A stretch of DNA of 64,000 nt from Candidatus Sumerlaeota bacterium (GTDB taxonomy: Bacteria; Sumerlaeota; Sumerlaeia; JAFGJS01), in assembly GCA_016928995.1 (NCBI GenBank), contig JAFGJS010000054.1, forward strand, positions 62,001 to 126,000. The letters are read 5' to 3'. The translations under genes were made by a program, and so were the position numbers. The notes beneath the pieces were generated by a model, which made no database searches, was not told the DNA's origin, and worked only from the letters and a program-made list of their open reading frames with translations. Positions within the stretch are counted from its first letter, which is position 1. Each line of letters opens with the position of its first letter. Positions 1-15,383 of the stretch are shown in pieces.

Positions 1-280
1 GAGGATGCTGCCCGTATTCGACCCATTGATTATCGTGATTGACATACTTGGCAGCGGCTCCGATGCATTTGGATGGAACATAAACGAGCACAGAGCCCTT
101 GCGCAGACGCTCCACAACATCCTCAAACGGCGCTCGAAATCCGCCATTGTTTTGCTCGCCTTCCATCGCGCCGTAAGCTCGGGCAAACACCTCGCGTTTC
201 CAGGATTCACTGCCGAGCTCTCCGACGTCTGCGTGCGATTCATTGAATAACGAGGTTATCTTTTGATCTTGGAAACTCAT
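1..280 (-). CDS. Unrecognised protein, N-terminal 93 residues, cut by the window edge
   Basis: The minus strand is open from an ATG at 280 to the window edge, and the ATG is preceded by a clear AGGAGAG ribosome site five bases upstream. The visible protein starts MSFQDQKITSLFNESHADVG, continues with a region rich in acidic and aromatic residues, and runs on beyond position 1. I recognise no domain, signal peptide or membrane segment. It is the last visible gene of the minus-strand cluster that begins with the sigma factor at 9118, and is separated from the preceding gene by 122 bases that contain hairpins, so it may be a distal operon gene or have its own expression level. Existence as a gene is well supported by the ribosome site and uninterrupted frame; function is unknown. 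Confidence 0.75.
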   Translation of the reverse strand, partial: MSFQDQKITSLFNESHADVGELGSESWKREVFARAYGAMEGEQNNGGFRAPFEDVVERLRKGSVLVYVPSKCIGAAAKYVNHDNQWVEYGQHP

Positions 281-388: not shown

Positions 389-410
389 CGTCCTGAGATC
401 TTTCAGGACG
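389..410. terminator. Hairpin overlapping a stop codon, possible terminator or attenuator
   Basis: CGTCCTGA at 389-396 pairs perfectly with TCAGGACG at 403-410 around a six-base loop. Read on the plus strand it is followed by GGGGTG and seven T residues, which is the better terminator direction. On the minus strand, where the genes lie, it is followed only by TTTCG, so termination would be weak. The hairpin contains the TGA stop of the 548-aa gene. It could partly insulate the distal gene that starts at 280. Confidence 0.4.
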
Positions 411-2049
411 GGGTGTTTTTTTCACTCGCAACCTCCTTTACTTTTTTTGTCGGGAGAAGGCTCTGCATCGCGGGCGATAAGATTTCGACGCAGCGGCTAG
501 GGGGACAGCTTGAGAAATGCGTCTCGTGGCGGTCTTCGTCATAGAGCGCGGGCACCGCGACGCCCTTTGAGTAAAAACGAAAAAGAACATTTTCAGCTTG
601 AGTCCGGCTGAGCCCTGTTTCTTGTGAGAATATGGCGGCGTCGTATTTTTCCGGAATATTAAACAACTCCGTGACGGTGAAGTTTGCGTTTTTTTTTAGG
701 CCCAGGAATTTCGCCGCCAGACGGCGTCCCAGACTTCTTTCCGGTCCGAAGGCTGTCTTTAGCGACGGGTATTTCTTATCCGGAAACAATTCCTTGCAGC
801 CCTCCGTTGATCGGAGCGACTGGCTCACGGTCCTCCGTATCAGCATATCGAGAAAAAGGAACCGCACGCCCCCCCCTTGCGGAGTGGCGGCAACCTCCGC
901 GAAAACCTGATTACGCCGATCCAATGCGGCCTTGACTTGCTTGGCAAGATCGGCCGCGGCAGCATGCAAGCCCCGCGCAACCATCTGGAGCTTGACCTTC
1001 CGAAACCGTTCTCTCCGGCCACGGCGAGTTTTGACATCATCGCGAATGGCATTCGCTGCTTCAGAAATGCGTTCGGCCTCGCTGACGGCGAGCTGAGCCG
1101 CCAACTCTGGATAGACTTCGTTTTGAAGCGAACCCATCATGGATTTGGCCAAGAGGGAGTAAAAAACCCGCAGCCAGGAAACCCCTTGCGTTTCGCGCGA
1201 CGCCGCGATGCCATCGAGCAGACCGTTCGTTGAGGAGCTCGGTTCGCCGGCTCCGATGAGGTCGGCGTAGATCAGTTGCGAAAGGGGGCTGGCGGCGGAG
1301 ACCGTTTGAATCAGCTTCATCCATTGCCTTGCGGACTCGCTCCTGCTCGGAACGTGATTGCCGGATCGCGCCTGCCTCTCAGCGCGCTCCTCCGTCGCCA
1401 AAACAGACAGCCGTTCGTCAGTCAGCAGACTAACGCGCCAATATGCTTCGATGACTTGCGCGTTGCGGAAGCCGCCGGGCGCAATATATCTCGAGAAACG
1501 CTCAGACAGAGGCGCTGCGCGCAGCGATGCGCACGCGGCGAATATCGTATCTTCCAAGAGCAAGTTGAGCTGAAGAAAATCCCCAGGGAAATCCATGCCT
1601 GTGATTTGATAAATAACCGCGAACGATTTTTTATCCTTGCTGAATTGAGTCAACGCATCGCTCAACGCTCCGGGTGAAATCCGCCCATCCCAGGCTTCAT
1701 TCAGCGCGCAAGCCCAAGCCAGCGGTTTGCCGCCGGATTGACATAGCCCTTGCGGAAACCACCCGTCGAAGACGCTGACATGAGGCCATGCGAGCTTCAC
1801 CACATATTTCAAAAGCCGGGCCGTCATGGCTTCGCGCAACTGACCAAGCTCCGCACAAGCCTCCGCAATATTTCGCGCAGGCTTTTTTAACGTGTTACCA
1901 GGCAAAGGGAGGTTCAACGCGCAGAAATCCCACAAGGAGCCCTGGCTTCGAAGAGCGTGAATGAGCTTGGGCCCCGAGCCCAGCATTGGGCGAAGAGCTG
2001 CGAGGTTGGAGCTCTTAAGCTGCGAAACAATAAAGCCATCGTCAGGCAT
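403..2049 (-). CDS. Unrecognised 548-aa protein of the CHAT/AAA+ cluster
   Basis: I choose the ATG at 2049 ([11 protein letters not shown]), which overlaps the TGA of the upstream AAA+ gene by eight bases, a spacing typical of translational coupling; an upstream in-frame ATG at 2103 would sit far inside the AAA+ gene. The protein is soluble in appearance, with alternating hydrophobic and charged helices, no signal peptide and no membrane segment. A basic stretch lies around residues 345-370 (DDVKTRRGRRERFRKVKLQM) and the C-terminus is lysine-rich. I recognise no family. Because its start is locked to the AAA+ gene it is probably a partner, substrate or effector of that ATPase. This is inference from gene order only. 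Confidence 0.8.
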   Translation of the reverse strand: MPDDGFIVSQLKSSNLAALRPMLGSGPKLIHALRSQGSLWDFCALNLPLPGNTLKKPARNIAEACAELGQLREAMTARLLKYVVKLAWPHVSVFDGWFPQGLCQSGGKPLAWACALNEAWDGRISPGALSDALTQFSKDKKSFAVIYQITGMDFPGDFLQLNLLLEDTIFAACASLRAAPLSERFSRYIAPGGFRNAQVIEAYWRVSLLTDERLSVLATEERAERQARSGNHVPSRSESARQWMKLIQTVSAASPLSQLIYADLIGAGEPSSSTNGLLDGIAASRETQGVSWLRVFYSLLAKSMMGSLQNEVYPELAAQLAVSEAERISEAANAIRDDVKTRRGRRERFRKVKLQMVARGLHAAAADLAKQVKAALDRRNQVFAEVAATPQGGGVRFLFLDMLIRRTVSQSLRSTEGCKELFPDKKYPSLKTAFGPERSLGRRLAAKFLGLKKNANFTVTELFNIPEKYDAAIFSQETGLSRTQAENVLFRFYSKGVAVPALYDEDRHETHFSSCPPSRCVEILSPAMQSLLPTKKVKEVASEKNTPS

Positions 2050-3880
2050 CGGGCCACCCTTTGTTGCTGGCGATCTGCCGCAATTTCTTGAGAATCCCAT
2101 CATCCGGACTCTGCGGGCGATAAAGAGCCTTGGCTTCAGTCACCACATCGTAAATAGTCTTCTGGGTCAGGGTATAATTCCCGTCTGAAATCTCGTCGTA
2201 AGCACGATAGAGCGCGTCGTCGATGGCATATTCAATTTCCGCGCCGGTCATGGCATTGGAGATATTCGGATGCGCCAGGAGCTGACAGAATCGCGTCAGC
2301 GGCTCCGTCGCCGTCAAATCATTGAGAGAAACCGAACGCGTCGTGCTATTTTGCGCCAGTTGGTCGGTGATCGTGTTATCGATCGTGATCTCATGCCCGC
2401 TGTTTTTTTGCAGACGGTCCAGTGCGCGCTTGAGATAGATTCCAAAGATGGATTGACGAGCCTCGGGCGTAGGAATATCCACCCAAAAGATTTGGTCAAA
2501 GCGGCCCTTGCGCGAGAACTCCGGGAAGTGTCTGAGCAAATCTTCAAAATTATTGGCTGTCGCGACGACAAAGACCGATTCCTCTTTTTCGCTCAACCAA
2601 GTCAAAAAATAACCTAAAACCCTGCGCGACACCCCGCTGTCGCCGCCGTCGCTGATTCCCGCGAAGGCTTTGTCAATTTCGTCAATCCAGAGGACGACCG
2701 GCGCCAGGGCTTCGGCCAAGCGCAGAGCCTCGCGCGTACGCTCCTCGCTCTCGCCAATGTAGCTGCCGAACAGCGCGCCGACATCCAAACGAAGCAAGGC
2801 CAGGTTGAACTCTTTTGCGACCAGCTTCGCCAACTGGCTCTTGCCGCCGCCGCTTGCGCCGCAGAGCATGATCCCTTTGGGAGCCGGTAGCGCGTACTCT
2901 TTGCGGATGGATTCACTGACTGCGGCGTCGCGCCGGATTCGAATCCATTCCCGGATCGTGCTCAGACCGCCCAGCTCGACATTGACATGAGGCGTGTAAT
3001 CCAACGCGGCGCTATGGATCGTCTGACTTTTCAAATACAGCATCTGCTCAACATGAGCAGCGACAAGCTGCCGGTTTCCCTGGACCGAAAACATATTGAT
3101 GCCAAGTCGATAGTCCGTCAGCGTCAGTCCGGTGCCGGCGGCGGAGACGAGCTCAATCAAGCGCTCTCTATAGTTTTCTTTTGTTGCTCCCAGCGACTCC
3201 AGATCATCGTCGCTCGGGTCAGGAATATCGAGCTGCTGCGCCTCGACCATTTTGGTCAGAAGTTGAGACAACTCCTCTCTTTCGGGTAAAGGGAAATGGA
3301 TGACTCGAATGTCACGCTTCAATTCAGTCGCCAATTGCTCCGACGAAGGCCCGATCACGATGATCGTCTTATAGGGATAAGACTCACGCGTCTCCCCTGA
3401 CCGTTGCGCCGCGTAATACTGCCTGAGTTCCTGAGCGGCCGCGCGCAACGGACGGACCAGCGAATCCGCTGCGAGGCCTTCCAGTTGAGGATAGATATCA
3501 TAAAAAACTGTCAGGCTGTCGGCGACGGTCGGATTGGTGACAGGATCCGCGTCGATCAACTCCTTGAAAGTGCGATCAGCATGGATTACGCCGTCCTGAT
3601 CGCCCCACCCCTGGGTCTCCTCTATCCCTGGGATATCCAGCCAGATTTGATCCTCAACGGAGCAGGAAGTGATCGGAAGTTGAAGTTCCTGAACTCCCGT
3701 ATTAGCGCACCAGCGTCGCAATCGCTTCCCCCTGTTTTCCCGTATAAGATGCCGGAATGCGCGAACGATGAAATCCATGGCCCGCGCCTCTTCGTAGGTC
3801 TCGATAAAAATGACGGGATAGCCCGCTCGGATTAAGAGCAAAAGGCGATCCATGGTTTCCTGCAACGTTTGTCGAGCCAT
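2042..3880 (-). CDS. Ycf46-like AAA+ ATPase, intact catalytic motifs
   Basis: 612-aa AAA+ protein. The ATG at 3880 is preferred because AAGGGAG lies just upstream and the family N-terminus ([20 protein letters not shown], residues 11-30) follows; the longer frame to 4039 runs into the upstream gene. Residues 1-260 resemble the Ycf46 N-terminal region. The AAA+ module has Walker A GASGGGKS (341-348), the YIGESE pore-region motif (374-379), Walker B LWIDEID (397-403), sensor-1 ATANN (440-444) and an RKGRFD arginine finger (457-462), so ATP hydrolysis is expected. Ycf46 proteins are widespread, poorly characterised AAA+ ATPases. It follows the CHAT fusion by 25 bases and overlaps the next gene, so it is in the operon. 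The CHAT protein's C-terminal half looks like a degenerate copy of this same architecture, suggesting the two form mixed oligomers. Confidence 0.9.
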
Positions 3881-3905: not shown

Positions 3906-6900
3906 TCATGCGTTATGGTTGGCCGTTGGCCATGACAACCGCGCGCCTTTCGCCGCCGACAACCAGAATTCGCGAGAGCGTGGATTGTCGTACGACGAAT
4001 GCAGACGGATTGTCTCATCCACCCAGTGTTCGATTTCATCGATGTTGATCAATTTTTCGCGACACTTGCTCAACGGCGCTCCCGGCGACGCAAGACGAGC
4101 CTCCGGCGTCAGAACAGCGCCGGCTTGGTCCGGATCGGTCAAGTCGTTCAGCTGATTCAGAAATTCCACATCCGCCGCGAGTTCCATCAGCTGGCAGCGT
4201 CGCAACGCAACTTGGAAGACATGCGCCCGATATTCCCCCCGCGGAGCAGCAAGGACGATCGACTCGGGGAAATGCCGTTTCCATTGAGCCGTGAGCTGTT
4301 CGCGCGCGGCGCAAGTTCCGATGACGATCACATCCTGTCGCGAACCGACTCCATCAAGCCAATGCAAGATGGCGCCGGAAAGCCGGATCATCAATTTGGA
4401 AATTTGATCAGCTCGGTTCGCTTCCCTGTCTCCAGCATGATACATACGCTCCGAGCGGCTCAATTCATCAATATCCCGCAGCATCACGACTGCGCGCACT
4501 TCGGCGGCGCAACGAAGAAGCGCTCGCATCGTTTCCTCGGATTCGCCGATGCCGCCCCGCAAACACGTTGCGGCGCTCAGCTTCGCCAAGGGCCGGTTCA
4601 AACGCCGTGCGATTTCCCCCGCCAGCATTTCCTGCGCCCGGCGATCATCCCCTTCCAGCAACAACGTCATGTTTGGCGGACGCCGGCCGGATACGTCGCA
4701 ATCGGCCAGATCCTGCGTCCATTGAACCAGCCATTTCTTATACTGCGGCGGAATCGGGACGCTCCCTGGCGGCGGGAGCTCATGTTTGGGCGTCAATACG
4801 CCTGTGCCGTATTGGGCGAACGCCTCAGTTTGCCGCTCTTTCAGCATATCCAACGCTCGAGTGTCGATCACGCCGTATTGCAGCGCGCAAAGACGCAGCG
4901 CGTAGAGGACATCCCGCTTCGCGCACCCCCTGAATTGCATCGACAATTCAATCGCCGCATCCATCGAAACTTGGACATTGGGCATTTTATGAGTGCTCGG
5001 AAAGTTCCAGATGATTTCATACAGCTCCGAAGCTTCCGGCGCCAACAACGGCACCACGGCAAATAAATTCGCGATCGGCTCGGGAATCCCAATCTCATCG
5101 CCTGCCACGATGATGACAGGAGCTCGGTTCGGATTGTCCCGGAACATCCGGAGAAACCGGTGGCAAGGCTGACCCAAATCCAGCCAGTGCCAGCCATTGA
5201 TCACGCACACGCATCTTTGGGCGCGGGAATCCTGGACGGAGCGGTCGGCGATGTAATACAGGCTGTGCAATCCACAGTAGATGCCGGCGCGGAGCTCCCC
5301 AAGCTCATGTCGCCACTCAACCCGCGTTTCCAGCTGATTATCGGGCTCGCGATCAAAGTGACATTCGATCAATCCCTTCTGCGGCTCCAGCGTGAGGAAT
5401 GCATATGTCTTCGAACCTCCGCTCTCGCAAAGACGCCGGATCGCGCTGCGCACATCCTCGAAGTCGGCCGCCGGAACAATAATCAAACGATGCCCCGCCT
5501 GAATCCGTTGTCCAATGGCGTTGACAAAGGCGTCAAGGATCGGGGTTTCTCCGAGCAACAGCTGCTTCATGCGTTTGGACACCAGGTCGCATCCAGGCCG
5601 CAATTTCGGATCAGGCGCAAGACACTCGCGGATCGTCTGGACAAAAGCAGGCGGGATTTTCAGTTTGAGTTCATCCGAAAGCAGTTCCTGCATATAGGGC
5701 GGGATTTGCTGTTTCGGCAGTTGATCTCCTTCAAACGGCGGCTTGCCTGTGACCTTTTCGAAAACCATCACCCCCAATGCCCAGCAATCCGCGCGCTGGA
5801 TGTCAGTTTGATCCGCGGTTGTGGATCCTTCTGGCGGCGCATAGGGAACGGCGGCCGTCCGCCCTGAGGTGACAAAGCTGACCCAATGCCCTTTGACGAC
5901 GATCCGGTCGATTGCATCGCCATCCCTGAGAAGCACACACGCAGGAGACAGGTTGCCGTGAGCCAATCCGGCTGCATGCAGCTCCGCCAGGGCTTGGCTC
6001 AATTCGGCGGTATGCCGGATAATCATCAGCAAATCAACTGCGGCGTTTGTTGACGCCGCATCGCTCGGGATAAGCCAGTTCGAAAAAGACCAATCTGGCG
6101 ACATGTCATCATAGATCAATGCCGCCAAATCTGGGATTTGACCATTGGATGACGACAGATTTTCCACGCGGTCAGGAATCAGATGCCCTGTGGCTCGCTC
6201 AATTGTGCGAAGAGCGCCAATGCCATCCTCGAGCATTTGCCGGATGCCTGTGACATTCTGAAAGTCATCATTGGGGACTTCAACCAGATGCCACGAGCCG
6301 CGGGTGTTGTGCTTCGCAAGATATGCGATTGAATATTCATCATCCCAAACGATGCGTTGCGATATGTATGGTCCCAAGGTGTTTTCCTCGGAGGCCGTTG
6401 AACATCGAACGGCGGTGGTCAGAGCGCCCCTTGCGACGGTCGAACCTTCGTCCAGTTGTCGCGCGGAACTCGCTGGGCAATAGACTTGGAAAAGATGAGC
6501 AAGCAGGGGAAAGCCCAGCGCCTTTTTAGCGTCATAGAGATGCTGAACCGTGGACGATGGATTTGTCTGCCAGCGTTCAAAAAACTCAAGCAACAGGGAA
6601 CGAAGCGTATTTTTACAATTGTTGTTTTCCGGGATGCGCTCCCAACTGCCGATATAGAACCTGACCCCGCATCTGAGGAAACGGCTGGCGAAGAATTCAT
6701 CGGAAGTGGATTGCCGATTGATGTTGCCGGCGCTCTGGCAGCCGCAGGCAAAGATCAACTCCGGCACGGGCAGCAAAGCCCCCTTGCTTTTGTCCAGGAT
6801 TGGTTGGATCGCGTGGGTAAGCTCGGCTATGCTGATAAATTGTTTTGTCGTACGATCAAGCGACCACCCGCTGTTTCGAAGCGTGCCGTCATTGGGCATG

Positions 6901-7514
6901 TGCCCGAGGAAGAGCACAACACGATGTTCGCGGAAGATCTCTCGAAGCTGGCCGACTCTTTCTGTATCATCGATCAGTTGCCCGCCGGGATACTCGTCAA
7001 CGATGAGCCCTTTTTTGATCAGATCACGCACGACCGCCCGCGCCCATTCTGATTCTTGTTTTTCGAACACCACCGCGATATGTTTCTGGCTTTGATGAAT
7101 CGATGTGATCTGCAGCGGAATCACAGTGCGGCAACCTGGGCCTGATTCGCTCAACGGTCCATTCCCCACAAACGCCAGCTCGGGAAGCAATTGCCATGTC
7201 TTAAGCTCATCGACACTTAAGCGATAGAACAGGTTATCGAGAGGAGCGCCGGCGACAGCGTCATAGCCATGCTGCCAATAATTGTTCGCCATGTCGATGC
7301 TCTCACTCCGGGGGAATGAGCCGCCATGCACCAGAGCGTCCCAAAACTTGGACATGAAATCCTTGGTTGCCCCCAAAGCGTTCGGCCATGTTTGGAGATC
7401 ATCCGCCTCAAGGCGCAAGGCGGTTTCATGATCCGCAGACTGTGTGGTGACCGCTGTTCTGGTCGCCACAAAGTCGTGATTCTCGTGATAGATGAAGGTC
7501 AACGAAACGTTCAT
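3906..7514 (-). CDS. CHAT protease - pseudokinase - degenerate Ycf46-like AAA+ fusion
   Basis: 1202-aa multidomain protein. Residues about 140-350 read as a CHAT caspase-like peptidase: a His in FLGHM (H205) and a Cys in ACGCQSA (C259) sit at the spacing and context of the family dyad. Residues about 385-650 read as a Ser/Thr kinase fold: HGNLSPACVLL (519-529) replaces the usual HRDLxxxN, so the catalytic Asp is Asn and the metal-binding Asn is Cys, and no DFG is seen, while YAPPE and DCWALG remain; it should be a pseudokinase. Residues about 660-1190 resemble Ycf46: an N-terminal segment NAIGQRIQAGHRLIIV, then an AAA+ core with Walker A replaced by LEGDDRRAQ (953-961), IGESE retained, and Walker B altered to LRDIDE. 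The CGGAG ribosome site overlaps the anti-sigma stop. Domain calls are by motif; the kinase and AAA+ inactivity are inferred from missing residues. Confidence 0.85.
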   Translation of the reverse strand: MNVSLTFIYHENHDFVATRTAVTTQSADHETALRLEADDLQTWPNALGATKDFMSKFWDALVHGGSFPRSESIDMANNYWQHGYDAVAGAPLDNLFYRLSVDELKTWQLLPELAFVGNGPLSESGPGCRTVIPLQITSIHQSQKHIAVVFEKQESEWARAVVRDLIKKGLIVDEYPGGQLIDDTERVGQLREIFREHRVVLFLGHMPNDGTLRNSGWSLDRTTKQFISIAELTHAIQPILDKSKGALLPVPELIFACGCQSAGNINRQSTSDEFFASRFLRCGVRFYIGSWERIPENNNCKNTLRSLLLEFFERWQTNPSSTVQHLYDAKKALGFPLLAHLFQVYCPASSARQLDEGSTVARGALTTAVRCSTASEENTLGPYISQRIVWDDEYSIAYLAKHNTRGSWHLVEVPNDDFQNVTGIRQMLEDGIGALRTIERATGHLIPDRVENLSSSNGQIPDLAALIYDDMSPDWSFSNWLIPSDAASTNAAVDLLMIIRHTAELSQALAELHAAGLAHGNLSPACVLLRDGDAIDRIVVKGHWVSFVTSGRTAAVPYAPPEGSTTADQTDIQRADCWALGVMVFEKVTGKPPFEGDQLPKQQIPPYMQELLSDELKLKIPPAFVQTIRECLAPDPKLRPGCDLVSKRMKQLLLGETPILDAFVNAIGQRIQAGHRLIIVPAADFEDVRSAIRRLCESGGSKTYAFLTLEPQKGLIECHFDREPDNQLETRVEWRHELGELRAGIYCGLHSLYYIADRSVQDSRAQRCVCVINGWHWLDLGQPCHRFLRMFRDNPNRAPVIIVAGDEIGIPEPIANLFAVVPLLAPEASELYEIIWNFPSTHKMPNVQVSMDAAIELSMQFRGCAKRDVLYALRLCALQYGVIDTRALDMLKERQTEAFAQYGTGVLTPKHELPPPGSVPIPPQYKKWLVQWTQDLADCDVSGRRPPNMTLLLEGDDRRAQEMLAGEIARRLNRPLAKLSAATCLRGGIGESEETMRALLRCAAEVRAVVMLRDIDELSRSERMYHAGDREANRADQISKLMIRLSGAILHWLDGVGSRQDVIVIGTCAAREQLTAQWKRHFPESIVLAAPRGEYRAHVFQVALRRCQLMELAADVEFLNQLNDLTDPDQAGAVLTPEARLASPGAPLSKCREKLINIDEIEHWVDETIRLHSSYDNPRSREFWLSAAKGARLSWPTANHNA

Positions 7515-7523
7515 GCCAATGGC

Positions 7524-8447
7524 TCACTCCGGGTTGCTTGGGTTCGATCCATCATCGCCGGCTTTCAGCGCCGGCGTATCATCACCAACCACCGGGATAC
7601 GAACGACGCTTTCCTTGATTGCGCCATTTTCATTCCACTGGACGCATAAAGAGAATCCATCTTTGCTCGGCGGATTAATAAAGAAACTTGTTTCGGATTT
7701 TTCGGAGTCCAACATCTTCATCCCGGTTTCAGCTTGACCGCCATCGCCAAGGCCGACACGAAACGATAACGGCTGATCATCCAGCTCCAACCGTATGGCG
7801 ATCCTCCAACGAGACTCGTTGCTTGGATCCACCGAGAGATGAAAAACGGCCTGAACTTCCGGAACCTTGACTTGAATCGAGAGAGGATCGATCCCAAGCA
7901 CAGGCACGGGCTGTAAAAGCATATTGCCAGACTCGCCTAAACGTATGCCTGCGTTGAGCATTTCCTTGGAGATCAGCAAAGATTGGCCGATGGCCTGCCG
8001 CACCAGATGCCAGGTCTGGTTGATCAGCATCACGACGGGTTGGGTTTTGAGTATTTCGGGCATTTTGGGAGGAGGAGGCATTTCCATCGAAACAGGAGGA
8101 ACCGGCCCTCGCAGCCGCATCAACGCGCCATAACACAGCTTGCATTCAAGGACATGCCGCCATGACATCCTCAGTTCATCGGTCAGCTCTCCGCTGGAGT
8201 ACTCAGCAAGCCGCTCCAAGGCCATGACATCCAGATGCGGCGGTTCATCGGGAGGCCATTCCGCTTCATCGCATGCCTCGAACGTTCGAAGCGACTTCAG
8301 AAGCATTACGAATTTTCCGTCCTGCTCCCATTCACGGCGGCATTCCGCGCACGTCGACAAATGCTCGCGCACCGCGGACGCCGCCGGCTCATCGAGAACC
8401 CCATCGCGGAATTCCGTAAGCCGCGAACGAATATCGTTACAATTCAT
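7524..8447 (-). CDS. Cytoplasmic anti-sigma factor with two zinc-binding motifs
   Basis: 307 aa. The N-terminus has the ZAS anti-sigma pattern: Cys3, then His29-x3-Cys33-x2-Cys36 (REHLSTCAEC). A second HVLECKLC motif (His98, Cys102, Cys105) gives a duplicated zinc finger. There is a proline-rich linker around 113-132 and a C-terminal part rich in beta-strand-like sequence (from about 185). No transmembrane helix is seen, unlike membrane-bound ZAS proteins, so it should act in the cytosol. A strong AAGGAG ribosome site precedes the ATG. It lies 65 bases after the ECF sigma gene, the classic sigma/anti-sigma pairing, and directly before the CHAT fusion, so the C-terminal beta-rich part may sense or contact that system. 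Family knowledge supports sigma binding; the signal is unknown. Confidence 0.85.
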   Translation of the reverse strand: MNCNDIRSRLTEFRDGVLDEPAASAVREHLSTCAECRREWEQDGKFVMLLKSLRTFEACDEAEWPPDEPPHLDVMALERLAEYSSGELTDELRMSWRHVLECKLCYGALMRLRGPVPPVSMEMPPPPKMPEILKTQPVVMLINQTWHLVRQAIGQSLLISKEMLNAGIRLGESGNMLLQPVPVLGIDPLSIQVKVPEVQAVFHLSVDPSNESRWRIAIRLELDDQPLSFRVGLGDGGQAETGMKMLDSEKSETSFFINPPSKDGFSLCVQWNENGAIKESVVRIPVVGDDTPALKAGDDGSNPSNPE

Positions 8448-8512: not shown

Positions 8513-9118
8513 TTATGACAGCCAATCCTCGCCTGCCTTTTTTTCGATGCACTCGCACAAGACCTTTTTTCCCCGGTGAATCCATGTCGCCACTGTTTTG
8601 CTATCGACGCCGCGGATTTCTGCGATATCTTTGTAGGAATAGCCAAGGAGCCAGAGATCCAGAGCCGACCTATAATTATCGGGAAGCTGCGACAGGCATT
8701 CTTCGATAATGAGCCTCATTTCGTTGGACATGGCAAGCCTTCGAGGATCCGGACTCGTGCTTGGAACTTCAATGCCCTGCTCCTCCACATCGGTCAATGA
8801 CATAGGATTTAAATTTTTTTCCCGCATCCTGGATCGGATCAATTCCAAACATTTATTTGCAGTCACTCTGGCGATCCAGCCGCCCAAAGGTCCTTTAGGC
8901 TTCCATAACGGAAGCTTCTGAAACAGATGAACGCAGACTTCCTGATACATATCTTCCGCATCTTCATTGTTCCCCCCGGCATAGCGCCATACAATCCCCC
9001 AGATCAGCTTTCCGAAGCGCTCTTCAAAAGCCTTCCAAGCAGCAGCTTCTCCGAGAAGCAGGCGCTGGACAAGATCTTGATCCTGGTCAAAATTTTCGTT
9101 TGGTGAAGTGTCTGCCAT
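8513..9118 (-). CDS. ECF-type RNA polymerase sigma factor
   Basis: 201 aa with sigma region 2 (EDAEDMYQEVCVHLFQ and GGWIARVTANKCLELIRSRM-like helices, about residues 52-100) and sigma region 4 (LPDNYRSALDLWLLGYSYKD, then VDSKTVATWIHRGKKVL, about 143-190). No region 1 or 3, as in the extracytoplasmic-function group. It is the first gene of the minus-strand cluster and precedes its anti-sigma factor, so it probably drives this operon and possibly others. A weak AGGAATAGAG ribosome site precedes the ATG, and a TATTATAT-type AT-rich element lies about 20 bases upstream, but I cannot identify an ECF-type -35 sequence with confidence. Sequence-to-family assignment is firm; its regulon is not known. 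Confidence 0.95.
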   Translation of the reverse strand: MADTSPNENFDQDQDLVQRLLLGEAAAWKAFEERFGKLIWGIVWRYAGGNNEDAEDMYQEVCVHLFQKLPLWKPKGPLGGWIARVTANKCLELIRSRMREKNLNPMSLTDVEEQGIEVPSTSPDPRRLAMSNEMRLIIEECLSQLPDNYRSALDLWLLGYSYKDIAEIRGVDSKTVATWIHRGKKVLCECIEKKAGEDWLS

Positions 9119-10207: not shown

Positions 10208-10283
10208 GGAGGCTTAGCTCAGTTGGTAGAAGCGCCAGGTTGAAGCCCTGGATGCGGAGGTTCGATTCCTCCAGCCTTCACCA
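10208..10283 (+). tRNA. tRNA-like gene, anticodon GAA (Phe by codon), unusual
   Basis: A 76-base cloverleaf with encoded CCA. The acceptor GGAGGCT pairs with AGCCTTC (one G-T), the T arm is GGAGG/CCTCC around TTCGATT, and the anticodon stem CCAGG/CCTGG holds the loop TTGAAGC, so the anticodon reads GAA for phenylalanine codons. Oddities: the D stem pairs only GCT with AGC and carries an extra A, the variable loop has four bases instead of five, and base 37 is G where tRNAs with A36 normally carry A37. The body otherwise resembles tRNA-Ala of related bacteria. Its setting beside two other abnormal tRNA-like genes and a slipin gene suggests a specialised RNA rather than the main tRNA-Phe of the cell. 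Confidence 0.7.
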
Positions 10284-10416
10284 ATTTCGACAATGAAAGG
10301 AGAATGATTTTTTCATGACATTATGCATGTGCTGTTGCGCCGACGGCGCGCGAGGCCCAGGACAATCCGGTCGGCCTAGCGTGTGCCGTGAACGGCATCG
10401 AAAGCAGTGGCCATTT

Positions 10417-10490
10417 GCACACGAGCTCAATTGGGAGAGCGTCAGACTATGGTTCTGAAGGTTGGGGGTTCGAGTCCCCCGTATGCGCCA
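10417..10490 (+). tRNA. tRNA-like gene resembling tRNA-Arg but with anticodon ATG
   Basis: A 74-base cloverleaf with encoded GCCA end. T arm GGGGG/CCCCC around TTCGAGT, D arm GCTC/GAGC, anticodon stem TCAGA/TCTGA with loop CTATGGT. The body and the loop flank closely resemble bacterial tRNA-Arg(ACG), whose loop is CTACGGA, but the middle anticodon base is T, giving ATG, which would read the His codon CAT. Other defects: only seven bases lie between the T stem and CCA, so the acceptor has six pairs with one C-A mismatch, and the normally invariant T8 is G. Its last six bases (GCGCCA) are also the start of the next tRNA-like gene. It looks like a modified or decoy tRNA. Confidence 0.65.
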
Positions 10491-10558
10491 ATCGTCCAAT
10501 TGGTTAGGACAACGGGCTTTACCCCCGTCGGTTGCGGGTTCGATTCCCGCTTGGTTCA
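10485..10558 (+). tRNA. tRNA-like gene resembling tRNA-Glu but with anticodon TTA
   Basis: A 74-base cloverleaf without an encoded CCA. T arm GCGGG/CCCGC around TTCGATT, D arm GTCC/GGAC, anticodon stem ACGGG/CCCGT with loop CTTTACC. The overall pattern matches tRNA-Glu, whose loop is CTTTCAC, but here the anticodon is TTA, complementary to the stop codon TAA, and base 37 is C where tRNAs almost always have a purine. The acceptor GCGCCAA/TTGGTTC has one C-T mismatch and one G-T pair. The first six bases are shared with the 3' end of the preceding tRNA-like gene, so one transcript cannot yield both full products. Could be an ochre-suppressor-like or non-translational RNA. Confidence 0.6.
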
Positions 10559-11012
10559 CAACTTCCCAGTAACGGAAGCAACAGCAATCGGCTTGGCGGC
10601 GGCGGATGCGGATGCGCCGGCCGGGCGTGGTGTTCGTGCGGATTTGAATCGCGGCTTGGCATGCGCGATTCAATCCGGATGGCATCACGTCGCGGCAGCG
10701 TTGGACGGCGCCATGCGGAAGGCGGATTCCGCCGCGATCAAAACTTCGGGCGCGCCGCGTAAATTGCAGAACGGATACGAGCAATGGAAGGCTTCATTTC
10801 CCGAACCGATCCAATGCACGCGGCGCAAAACGGAGGAGTCGATCGCGGCTCAAGCGCTTCCCCGCGTACGTGAATGTGGCGGATTCGACGGAAACCGCCG
10901 CCAGGCCACAAAATTCTTAAGCAAGAGCAAGAGTAGGAGCAAGATTACTGAGCATCATCGTATCTTTCGATACATCGCGACGCAGCGCCGGCTTAGGGCT
11001 GCCGCAAATTCA
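10559..11012 (+). other. Leader of the slipin gene with strong hairpins
   Basis: About 450 bases between the last tRNA-like gene and the slipin start. The open frame that crosses it also runs through two tRNA-like genes and has no ribosome site, so I do not call a protein. Visible structure: CGGATTTGAATCGCG pairs with CGCGATTCAATCCG around a short loop near 10638-10680, a GGCGGATTCCGCC palindrome near 10724, and a GTATC/GATAC hairpin near 10957. An AAGCAAGAGCAAGAG repeat tract near 10918 belongs to a dispersed class also seen at 31905 and 56826. It may be a long untranslated leader or further small RNAs. Confidence 0.4.
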
Positions 11013-14219: not shown

Positions 14220-15383
14220 TCAAGGAAACTGCAAAACCAAGATCGAAAAATCATCCTCGAATTCCGGCTTCAATGTCCGTTGACGAATCGCGTGCAACAA
14301 CCGCTCCGCCTCGCCTCGAATCGCACCGGTTGAATCGCCGGCCCGAACCAGCTCCTCCAGCCCCTCGACCTGCAACATCGCCTTGTTATCGCCGACCACC
14401 GCCTCCGTCACCCCATCGCTGTAAAGATAGATGCGAGCATCCGGCGCCAACTCAATCGACCGGCTTTGATATTGAAATTCCTTCATGAAACCAATCGCCA
14501 TCCCATCCGAAGTCAGCTGCTCCACCGAATCCCCAGCCGCGCTCAGCAACAAACCCGGAGGATGCCCGCCCGAAGCAAAATCCAGCGTCCGTGTATCAAA
14601 CCGGTAAACCCCGTACCAAATCGTAAAATACAACTGATTATGATCCTGCATTCCGAAATGCCGGTTCAGCTCCCCCAGCACCGCCGCAGGATCATGAAAA
14701 TCCGCCCGCTGCAACGTCTCCAACCGCAGCATATTCAACACCGAAACCGAATGCATCGCCGAACTCACCCCATGCCCGCTCACATCCAGCAAATAAAACG
14801 CCAAATGATTCTCATCCAACCGGTGATACCCGAACGAATCGCCTCCCAGCGCATAGCTCGGCACAAAACACCAATCCGTCTTGATCTCCAGCTCATCCAA
14901 TGGATCCGGCAGCAGCGACTGAACGTAATGCACCGCCCGCCGCATATCGCTTGCCACATCGGCGCCCTTCTGCAATTCCGTCGGCGCCAAAAACTCATGC
15001 CGCAGCCACTGATGACCGATTTGCAGGCTCGCATTCACCGGCCATTCCGCCGATCCCGCCACGCGCTCGCCATCGATGAAAACCCCGTTCGTCGAATTCA
15101 AATCGATGATCTTGACCGTCCCCTCCTCGCGGCAAATGCTGCAATGCCGCTTCGATACAAGACTGTCCACCAGCGTCACATCGCATTCATCAAGCCGGCC
15201 GATCACAATCGGCGTCGTCCCGATCCGGATGTGCCGCCCCAGATGATTGCCGTCCTCCAGATAGATATAATGCTCGCGCGCCAGCCTCATCAGATGCGCC
15301 GGAAACTCCGATCCGATCTCGGTCATACCGCTATCCAGCGGCATCGCCTCCGAGCGGTCGGTTTTTTCCTCATGACAGTCCAT
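14220..15383 (-). CDS. FHA domain plus PP2C-type (SpoIIE/RsbU) serine phosphatase
   Basis: 387 aa. The N-terminal FHA domain (about 45-130) carries GRLDECDVTL, SKRHCSI and LNSTNGVFIDGERV, the phosphothreonine-binding strands. The C-terminal SpoIIE/RsbU-type PP2C domain (about 165-386) has GGDSFGYHRL, FYLLDVSGHGVSSAM, ASGGHPPGLLL, IYLYSDGVTEA and DDFSILVLQF with the acidic metal ligands in place. Such proteins dephosphorylate partners after docking to phosphorylated proteins, often in partner-switching or Ser/Thr-kinase signalling. No kinase or anti-anti-sigma partner is adjacent. The start is uncertain: the first ATG has a weak ribosome site, and Met14 is an alternative. Confidence 0.92.
   Translation of the reverse strand: MDCHEEKTDRSEAMPLDSGMTEIGSEFPAHLMRLAREHYIYLEDGNHLGRHIRIGTTPIVIGRLDECDVTLVDSLVSKRHCSICREEGTVKIIDLNSTNGVFIDGERVAGSAEWPVNASLQIGHQWLRHEFLAPTELQKGADVASDMRRAVHYVQSLLPDPLDELEIKTDWCFVPSYALGGDSFGYHRLDENHLAFYLLDVSGHGVSSAMHSVSVLNMLRLETLQRADFHDPAAVLGELNRHFGMQDHNQLYFTIWYGVYRFDTRTLDFASGGHPPGLLLSAAGDSVEQLTSDGMAIGFMKEFQYQSRSIELAPDARIYLYSDGVTEAVVGDNKAMLQVEGLEELVRAGDSTGAIRGEAERLLHAIRQRTLKPEFEDDFSILVLQFP

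Follow-up and report, generated by a model that had tools for sequence, protein, structure and literature searches.

What is the role of a bacterial gene that joins a predicted caspase-like protease domain, a kinase fold lacking catalytic residues and an AAA+ relative in a single polypeptide? The gene lies at positions 3906-7514 of the window, by which we mean the whole 64,000-nucleotide stretch of Candidatus Sumerlaeota bacterium DNA analysed here (contig JAFGJS010000054.1, positions 62,001 to 126,000). A first-pass annotation of the letters alone had described it as a CHAT protease joined to a pseudokinase and a degenerate Ycf46-like AAA+ half, with no described system of this domain order. 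The open reading frame (ORF) of 1,202 codons does exist. It is read from the minus strand, however, and stops crowd the plus strand between these positions. A literature search, with most subscription journals outside its reach, returned no paper with CHAT, pseudokinase and Ycf46 in one protein. The gene is nevertheless not a stand-alone oddity, as it forms part of a large MoxR/FtsH-type AAA+ operon. Both the fusion and its operon recur in an unrelated phylum, and together they resemble a stress or defence machine that has not been described before, with proteolysis that can be switched as its likely task.

Results

Domain order of the fusion protein

Pfam returned the domains in the order claimed from the letters, with CHAT at residues 162-318 (E 8e-4), Pkinase at 500-643 (E 2.5e-9) and AAA at 963-1079 (E 9e-8). 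The full extents are a CHAT region (~130-347), a pseudokinase (380-655) and a complete Ycf46-like region (660-1202). A full-length homologue, 29% identical over residues 49-1187 (E 3e-123, 398 bits), is encoded in another phylum by Acidimicrobiia bacterium nzgw83 (JAHFUQ010000004.1, hereafter L191). Since this homologue stands in a conserved gene order, chance is excluded as the source of the whole fusion protein. PADLOC gave no defence system match beyond generic kinase (mad6, PD-T4-6) and AAA (IetA) similarity. The features of the fusion gene, all on the minus strand, are as follows.

3906..7514, minus strand: CHAT-pseudokinase-Ycf46-like fusion, 1202 aa (ORF, Pfam, full-length homologue in L191)
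6474..7127, minus strand: CHAT domain (clan CD, caspase-like), residues ~130-347 (PF12770 E 8e-4; model match to SAVED-CHAT 8tl0)
6900..6902, minus strand: codon of His205, a putative catalytic residue that ends predicted strand 199-205; kept in L191 and in three CHATs at FtsH-ternary loci
6738..6740, minus strand: codon of Cys259, predicted catalytic, after predicted strand 252-257; kept in L191 and the same three CHATs and aligned by hhalign with the CHAT Cys
5550..6377, minus strand: pseudokinase domain, residues ~380-655 (Pkinase E 1.7e-10 on the segment; motif losses)
3909..5537, minus strand: Ycf46-like region, N-terminal part and AAA+, residues ~660-1202 (hhalign to a Ycf46 profile)
4629..4652, minus strand: degenerate Walker A slot, GDDRRAQE, aligned with GPAGCGKT in L191

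The CHAT domain and its His/Cys pair

Residues ~130-347 very probably form a CHAT domain. With residues 1-380 alone, CHAT was the sole credible Pfam family, the runner-up having an E value of 0.15. The predicted catalytic residues are those picked out by the first-pass annotation, H205 in VVLFLGH and C259 in ELIFACGCQSA, and both are retained in L191 at ~31% identity across the CHAT region. C257 is a serine in L191 while C259 is conserved, hence the motif cysteine is C259. The invariant columns across the window protein, L191 and three CHATs encoded near FtsH-ternary MoxR and FtsH genes (L214:911-2590, Nostoc; L258:2333-3181, Saccharothrix; L256:2227-3321, Actinocrispum) include F202, G204, H205, G210 and C259. 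When CHAT profiles were built from CHATs of the same class and of another phylum, hmmsearch gave no match above shuffles and hhalign aligned just the Cys half.

An AlphaFold2 (AF2) model of residues 1-365 was made from the alignment of these five sequences, three of them known CHATs, so that it is not a blind test. Its mean predicted local distance difference test score (pLDDT) was 46, with 65-84 over residues 141-180, and its predicted template modelling score was 0.50. In this low-confidence model the strand order is that of clan CD, with H205 ending strand 199-205 and C259 just past strand 252-257. VIA-align placed the SAVED-CHAT filament 8tl0 at the top (Z 12.2, root mean square deviation 3.8, 168 residues, over residues 137-347), followed by caspases (Z ~9 to 10, best 10.1), flavodoxin-like NQO1 (9.3) and separase (9.0). 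This ranking of caspases and CHAT was seen with VIA-align only; Foldseek on the same model gave nothing below E 1e-3 and ranked TIR and flavodoxin-like folds among its best. A single-sequence AF2 model of residues 1-380 had a pLDDT of 36 and was discarded.

A kinase fold with lost catalytic residues

The suggested loss of the catalytic Asp was borne out in both homologues, in which HGN stands in place of HRD. The VAIK Lys is likewise replaced, by E in the window protein and by Q in L191, and DFG has become GHW and DAW respectively, while APPE and DCWxLG are retained in both. To judge from these motifs, kinase catalysis by the fusion is very unlikely and the domain would have a regulatory or binding role.

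A whole Ycf46-like tail beside an active Ycf46

The match to AAA/Ycf46 expected for residues 660-1202 was recovered, and it extends further than the "AAA+ half" first described. A profile of the window protein and L191 could be aligned with that of Ycf46 across 471 columns, which take in the N-terminal part as well as the AAA+ (hhalign E 1.4e-15), such that the tail corresponds to a whole Ycf46-like protein. The window sequence alone gave E 7.6e-7, and a control alignment with FtsH-ternary ATPases gave E 2.4e-9. The broken Walker A was read correctly in the window protein, where LEGDDRRAQ fills the slot and Walker B and GRFD are also lost. It is not a conserved feature, however, as L191 lacks GRFD but has an intact Walker A (GPAGCGKT); the death of the AAA+ is therefore lineage-specific.

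The next gene encodes an active Ycf46-type AAA+ (2042..3880, minus strand, ATG at 3880, ORF open to 4039) with Walker A GASGGGKS, Walker B and GRFD. It starts ~25 bp past the stop codon of the fusion gene in the window and in L191 alike, is 44% identical between the two, and is 42-46% identical to Ycf46 of same-class genomes. It is the sole strong Ycf46 match in this genome. The idea that same-class Ycf46 genes commonly have such an operon-like context was rejected, none of 14 loci having operon partners next to Ycf46. To our knowledge, Ycf46 is a widespread AAA+ family without an agreed mechanism.

A homologous operon in another phylum

L191 was found with the MoxR of the operon as query, which gave four close MoxRs (43-45% identity). 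A search of gene neighbourhoods had been proposed for homologues, and L191 yielded most of the operon order together with the full-length fusion. The shared order is CHAT fusion, Ycf46 (44%), p566 (23%), FtsH-like AAA+ (38%), p168 (29%), MoxR (43%), p517, p668 (27%) and the large protein (24%); the small L191 gene at the position of p201 has no detectable similarity to p201. Three loci (L189, L190 and L192, two of them named UBP9) share MoxR, p517, p668 and the large protein with the operon, and over the stretch covered they lack the CHAT/Ycf46/FtsH section.

Searches with the fusion protein gave no orthologue among 40 genomes of the same class, ~300 further genomes and 195 genomes of another phylum, and a peptide pattern scan with the whole protein over 84,980 species found no relative. 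The CHAT half gave noise only against 340 relatives and the 195 genomes of another phylum. A plasmid search returned one Nostoc AAA and nothing else, and a search of viral contigs returned no match. The gene is present in just 1 of 395 genomes sampled in the class of L191. Hence its distribution is patchy, and horizontal transfer is likely.

The operon and its flanks

The operon occupies ~28 kb of the minus strand, from the gene of an extracytoplasmic function (ECF) sigma factor (9118) across the window start as far as C97:45364. Its order is ECF sigma, zf-HC2 protein, CHAT fusion, active Ycf46, p566, FtsH-like AAA+, small proteins, MoxR, p517, p668 and a 2,321-aa protein. The genes that flank the fusion and active Ycf46 within the window are the following.

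8513..9118, minus strand: ECF sigma factor (Sigma70_r2 E 5e-13, r4_2 E 2e-13)
7524..8447, minus strand: zf-HC2 anti-sigma-like protein, 307 aa, with a C-terminal beta-rich domain (PF13490 E 1e-8)
403..2103, alternative ATG at 2049, minus strand: p566, conserved operon protein (23% identity in L191, E 7e-11)
2..280, minus strand: first part of a 545-aa FtsH-family AAA+, whole at L021:17144-18781 (NCBIfam FtsH 85 bits; 38% in L191)

The genes for the sigma factor, the anti-sigma-like protein and the CHAT fusion follow one another directly, 9 bp separating the second from the third; an ECF-type GGAAC promoter was looked for upstream of the sigma gene and none was found. p566 also has a weak match upstream of MoxR in L192. 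In the FtsH-like protein an active FtsH-type half is clear, and an N-terminal half aligned in register weakly (E 0.067), which is no more than suggestive of an inactive N-terminal AAA. Another operon gene encodes a protein with four transmembrane-like segments. Pfam on the operon proteins gave no EAD1 and no ubiquitin-like (Ubl) conjugation domains.

The operon MoxR is bpMoxR-like (101.6 bits to bpMoxR) with a TAK-type P-loop, GPPGTAKT. The bpMoxR match was rejected as a diagnostic, the same model being positive in 12 of 14 control genomes, and a tree was used instead. In the tree the operon-type MoxRs form their own clade (100/100) next to FtsH-ternary MoxRs and one bpMoxR (95/94), far from generic MoxR, with long branches that leave the exact placement unsure. 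The 2,321-aa protein (L021:1865-8830) has one N-terminal transmembrane-like segment and no Pfam match; its counterparts (22-25% identity) stand next to MoxR in four other genomes.

About 540 bp after the operon end, on the same contig ahead of the window start, lie genes for a zinc-ribbon protein with a weak vWA match, a vWA protein, a membrane PP2C phosphatase and a kinase-FHA protein (L053:16109-19971, L021:488-1321); the vWA proteins here are 231 and 277 aa long and without propeller. We take this row to resemble the TerY phosphorylation triad. Its membership in the operon core was not supported, the genes being absent downstream in L191. On the other flank of the operon, three tRNA-like genes occur on the plus strand at 10208-10559: tRNA-Phe, a "tRNA-His" whose anticodon is an odd ATG, and a third whose anticodon, TTA, would read the stop codon TAA and which may be a degenerate or suppressor tRNA. 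Further along, at 14220-15383 on the minus strand, an ORF looks by eye like a fusion of FHA with a SpoIIE/PP2C-type phosphatase.

Discussion

A model for the fusion and its operon

Our data are consistent with a model where the fusion is the protease component of an undescribed lineage of MoxR/FtsH-type AAA+ ternary systems, a Ycf46-tethered CHAT gated by the pseudokinase and by MoxR/FtsH, perhaps cutting the anti-sigma-like protein. We put the probability of this reading at about 0.5, and we rated the fusion as a new architecture within MoxR-centred multi-ATPase conflict systems. The Ycf46-like tail would dock the fusion on the active Ycf46 ATPase, its paralogue from the next gene, and the pseudokinase would be a switch that works by regulation or binding rather than by catalysis. 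A threshold sensed or set by the MoxR and FtsH-like ATPases, together with their partners, may release the His/Cys dyad or bring it into position. By analogy with Craspase, the candidate target is the anti-sigma-like protein encoded directly upstream, whose cleavage would free the ECF sigma and turn a response on. Proteolytic activity, assembly and a conflict or stress role, like the docking, gating and substrate, are things we infer. More tentative is the fuller proposal of a novel kind of ATP-dependent protease switch, in which CHAT is brought into a Ycf46-type assembly by the paralogous tail, held off by the pseudokinase and made to govern the ECF sigma, in a multi-ATPase conflict system moving between phyla.

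Several observations weigh against the preferred model. The E value of 8e-4 and the Z of 12.2 to SAVED-CHAT point to CHAT similarity, but the PF12770 score of the window protein was 19.4 bits against a cut-off of 24, no Pfam CHAT was detected in L191, and hmmsearch with the profiles built from TPR-CHATs gave no match above shuffled sequence. The AF2 model is poor and its alignment contained the known CHATs. Contact between the fusion and Ycf46 is something we infer, and no vWA component could be recognised among the conserved operon genes. Upstream in L191 an ORF matches sigma70_r2 weakly (E 0.02), and the protein in the anti-sigma slot matches the C-terminal domain of the anti-sigma-like protein of the window (E 6e-5) without zf-HC2, which makes the substrate idea weak.

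The marginal Pfam score and the high placing of TIR and flavodoxin folds by Foldseek on a weak model would fit a different Rossmann-like alpha/beta domain (TIR-like or flavodoxin-like) at residues 130-347, carrying a fortuitous His and Cys. We consider this very improbable, given that CHAT is the sole credible Pfam family, that SAVED-CHAT leads the structural matches and that the GH...C register is invariant with genuine CHATs. On another rival reading, that of a non-proteolytic scaffold, CHAT, pseudokinase and degenerate AAA+ would all be binding modules assembling a complex, as proposed for many inactive peptidase domains at the effector position of VMAP ternary systems, in which ~70% of the caspase domains in that position are reported to be inactive (Kaur et al. 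2020, PMC7159879). In the window protein, two modules out of three have indeed lost catalytic residues, yet both predicted catalytic residues of CHAT persist while neighbours such as C257 have changed, and the P-loop is intact in L191. We regard a pure scaffold as unlikely.

An active protease might instead have as its main job the regulated cutting of the zf-HC2 protein to free the ECF sigma, in a housekeeping response to stress that has nothing to do with phage defence. The contiguity of the three genes favours this, and there are precedents: in Craspase, Csx29 cuts Csx30 and releases an ECF sigma factor (PMC10028731), and in the CRISPR-linked CalpL/T/S, CalpL cuts CalpT to the same effect (PMC11417357). 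The sigma/anti-sigma pair is, however, strongly diverged in L191, and the zf-HC2 protein is a putative substrate; we judge this account rather improbable. The protease component of a MoxR/FtsH-type system is the reading that we carry forward. The operon connects such ternary systems with a sigma factor as well as with a CHAT protease, and offers a concrete candidate substrate for testing. Furthermore, the natural fusion of a Ycf46 paralogue with a caspase-like protease, encoded next to an active Ycf46, leads to a testable proposal, that Ycf46 acts as an unfoldase or assembly platform.

Comparison with known systems

MoxR/FtsH ternary systems were defined by computation (PMC7159879); the FtsH-ternary ones often have caspase-like effectors and the beta-propeller ones lack conventional effectors (Kaur et al. 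2020). The operon shares with FtsH-type MoxR-vWA systems the TAK-type MoxR P-loop, an FtsH-family AAA+, a caspase-like effector, several operon-specific proteins and a neighbouring place in the MoxR tree. It differs in having an active Ycf46, the CHAT-pseudokinase-Ycf46 fusion and the ECF sigma pair, and in that no Ubl conjugation genes were recognised and a vWA core protein was not identified. With the MoxR-vWA-beta-propeller systems (PF20030, bpMoxR) it has in common the bpMoxR match and a very large partner with an N-terminal transmembrane-like segment, whereas no Pfam propeller was found in the 2,321-aa protein and the published systems have no conventional effector.

Craspase (Csx29 TPR-CHAT, Csx30, ECF sigma) offers the same adjacency of a CHAT protease, an anti-sigma-like protein and an ECF sigma. 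In contrast, there is no CRISPR effector in the operon, and CHAT is joined to a pseudokinase and a Ycf46-like AAA+ rather than to TPRs. The SAVED-CHAT of type III CRISPR (8tl0) is the top structural match for the CHAT region, whereas no SAVED domain was found in the fusion. The Ycf46 AAA+ proteins resemble the fusion by homology across both Ycf46 parts, and an active member of the family is encoded next to it; the tail differs from them in having lost Walker A, Walker B and GRFD in the window protein and in being joined to a CHAT-pseudokinase.
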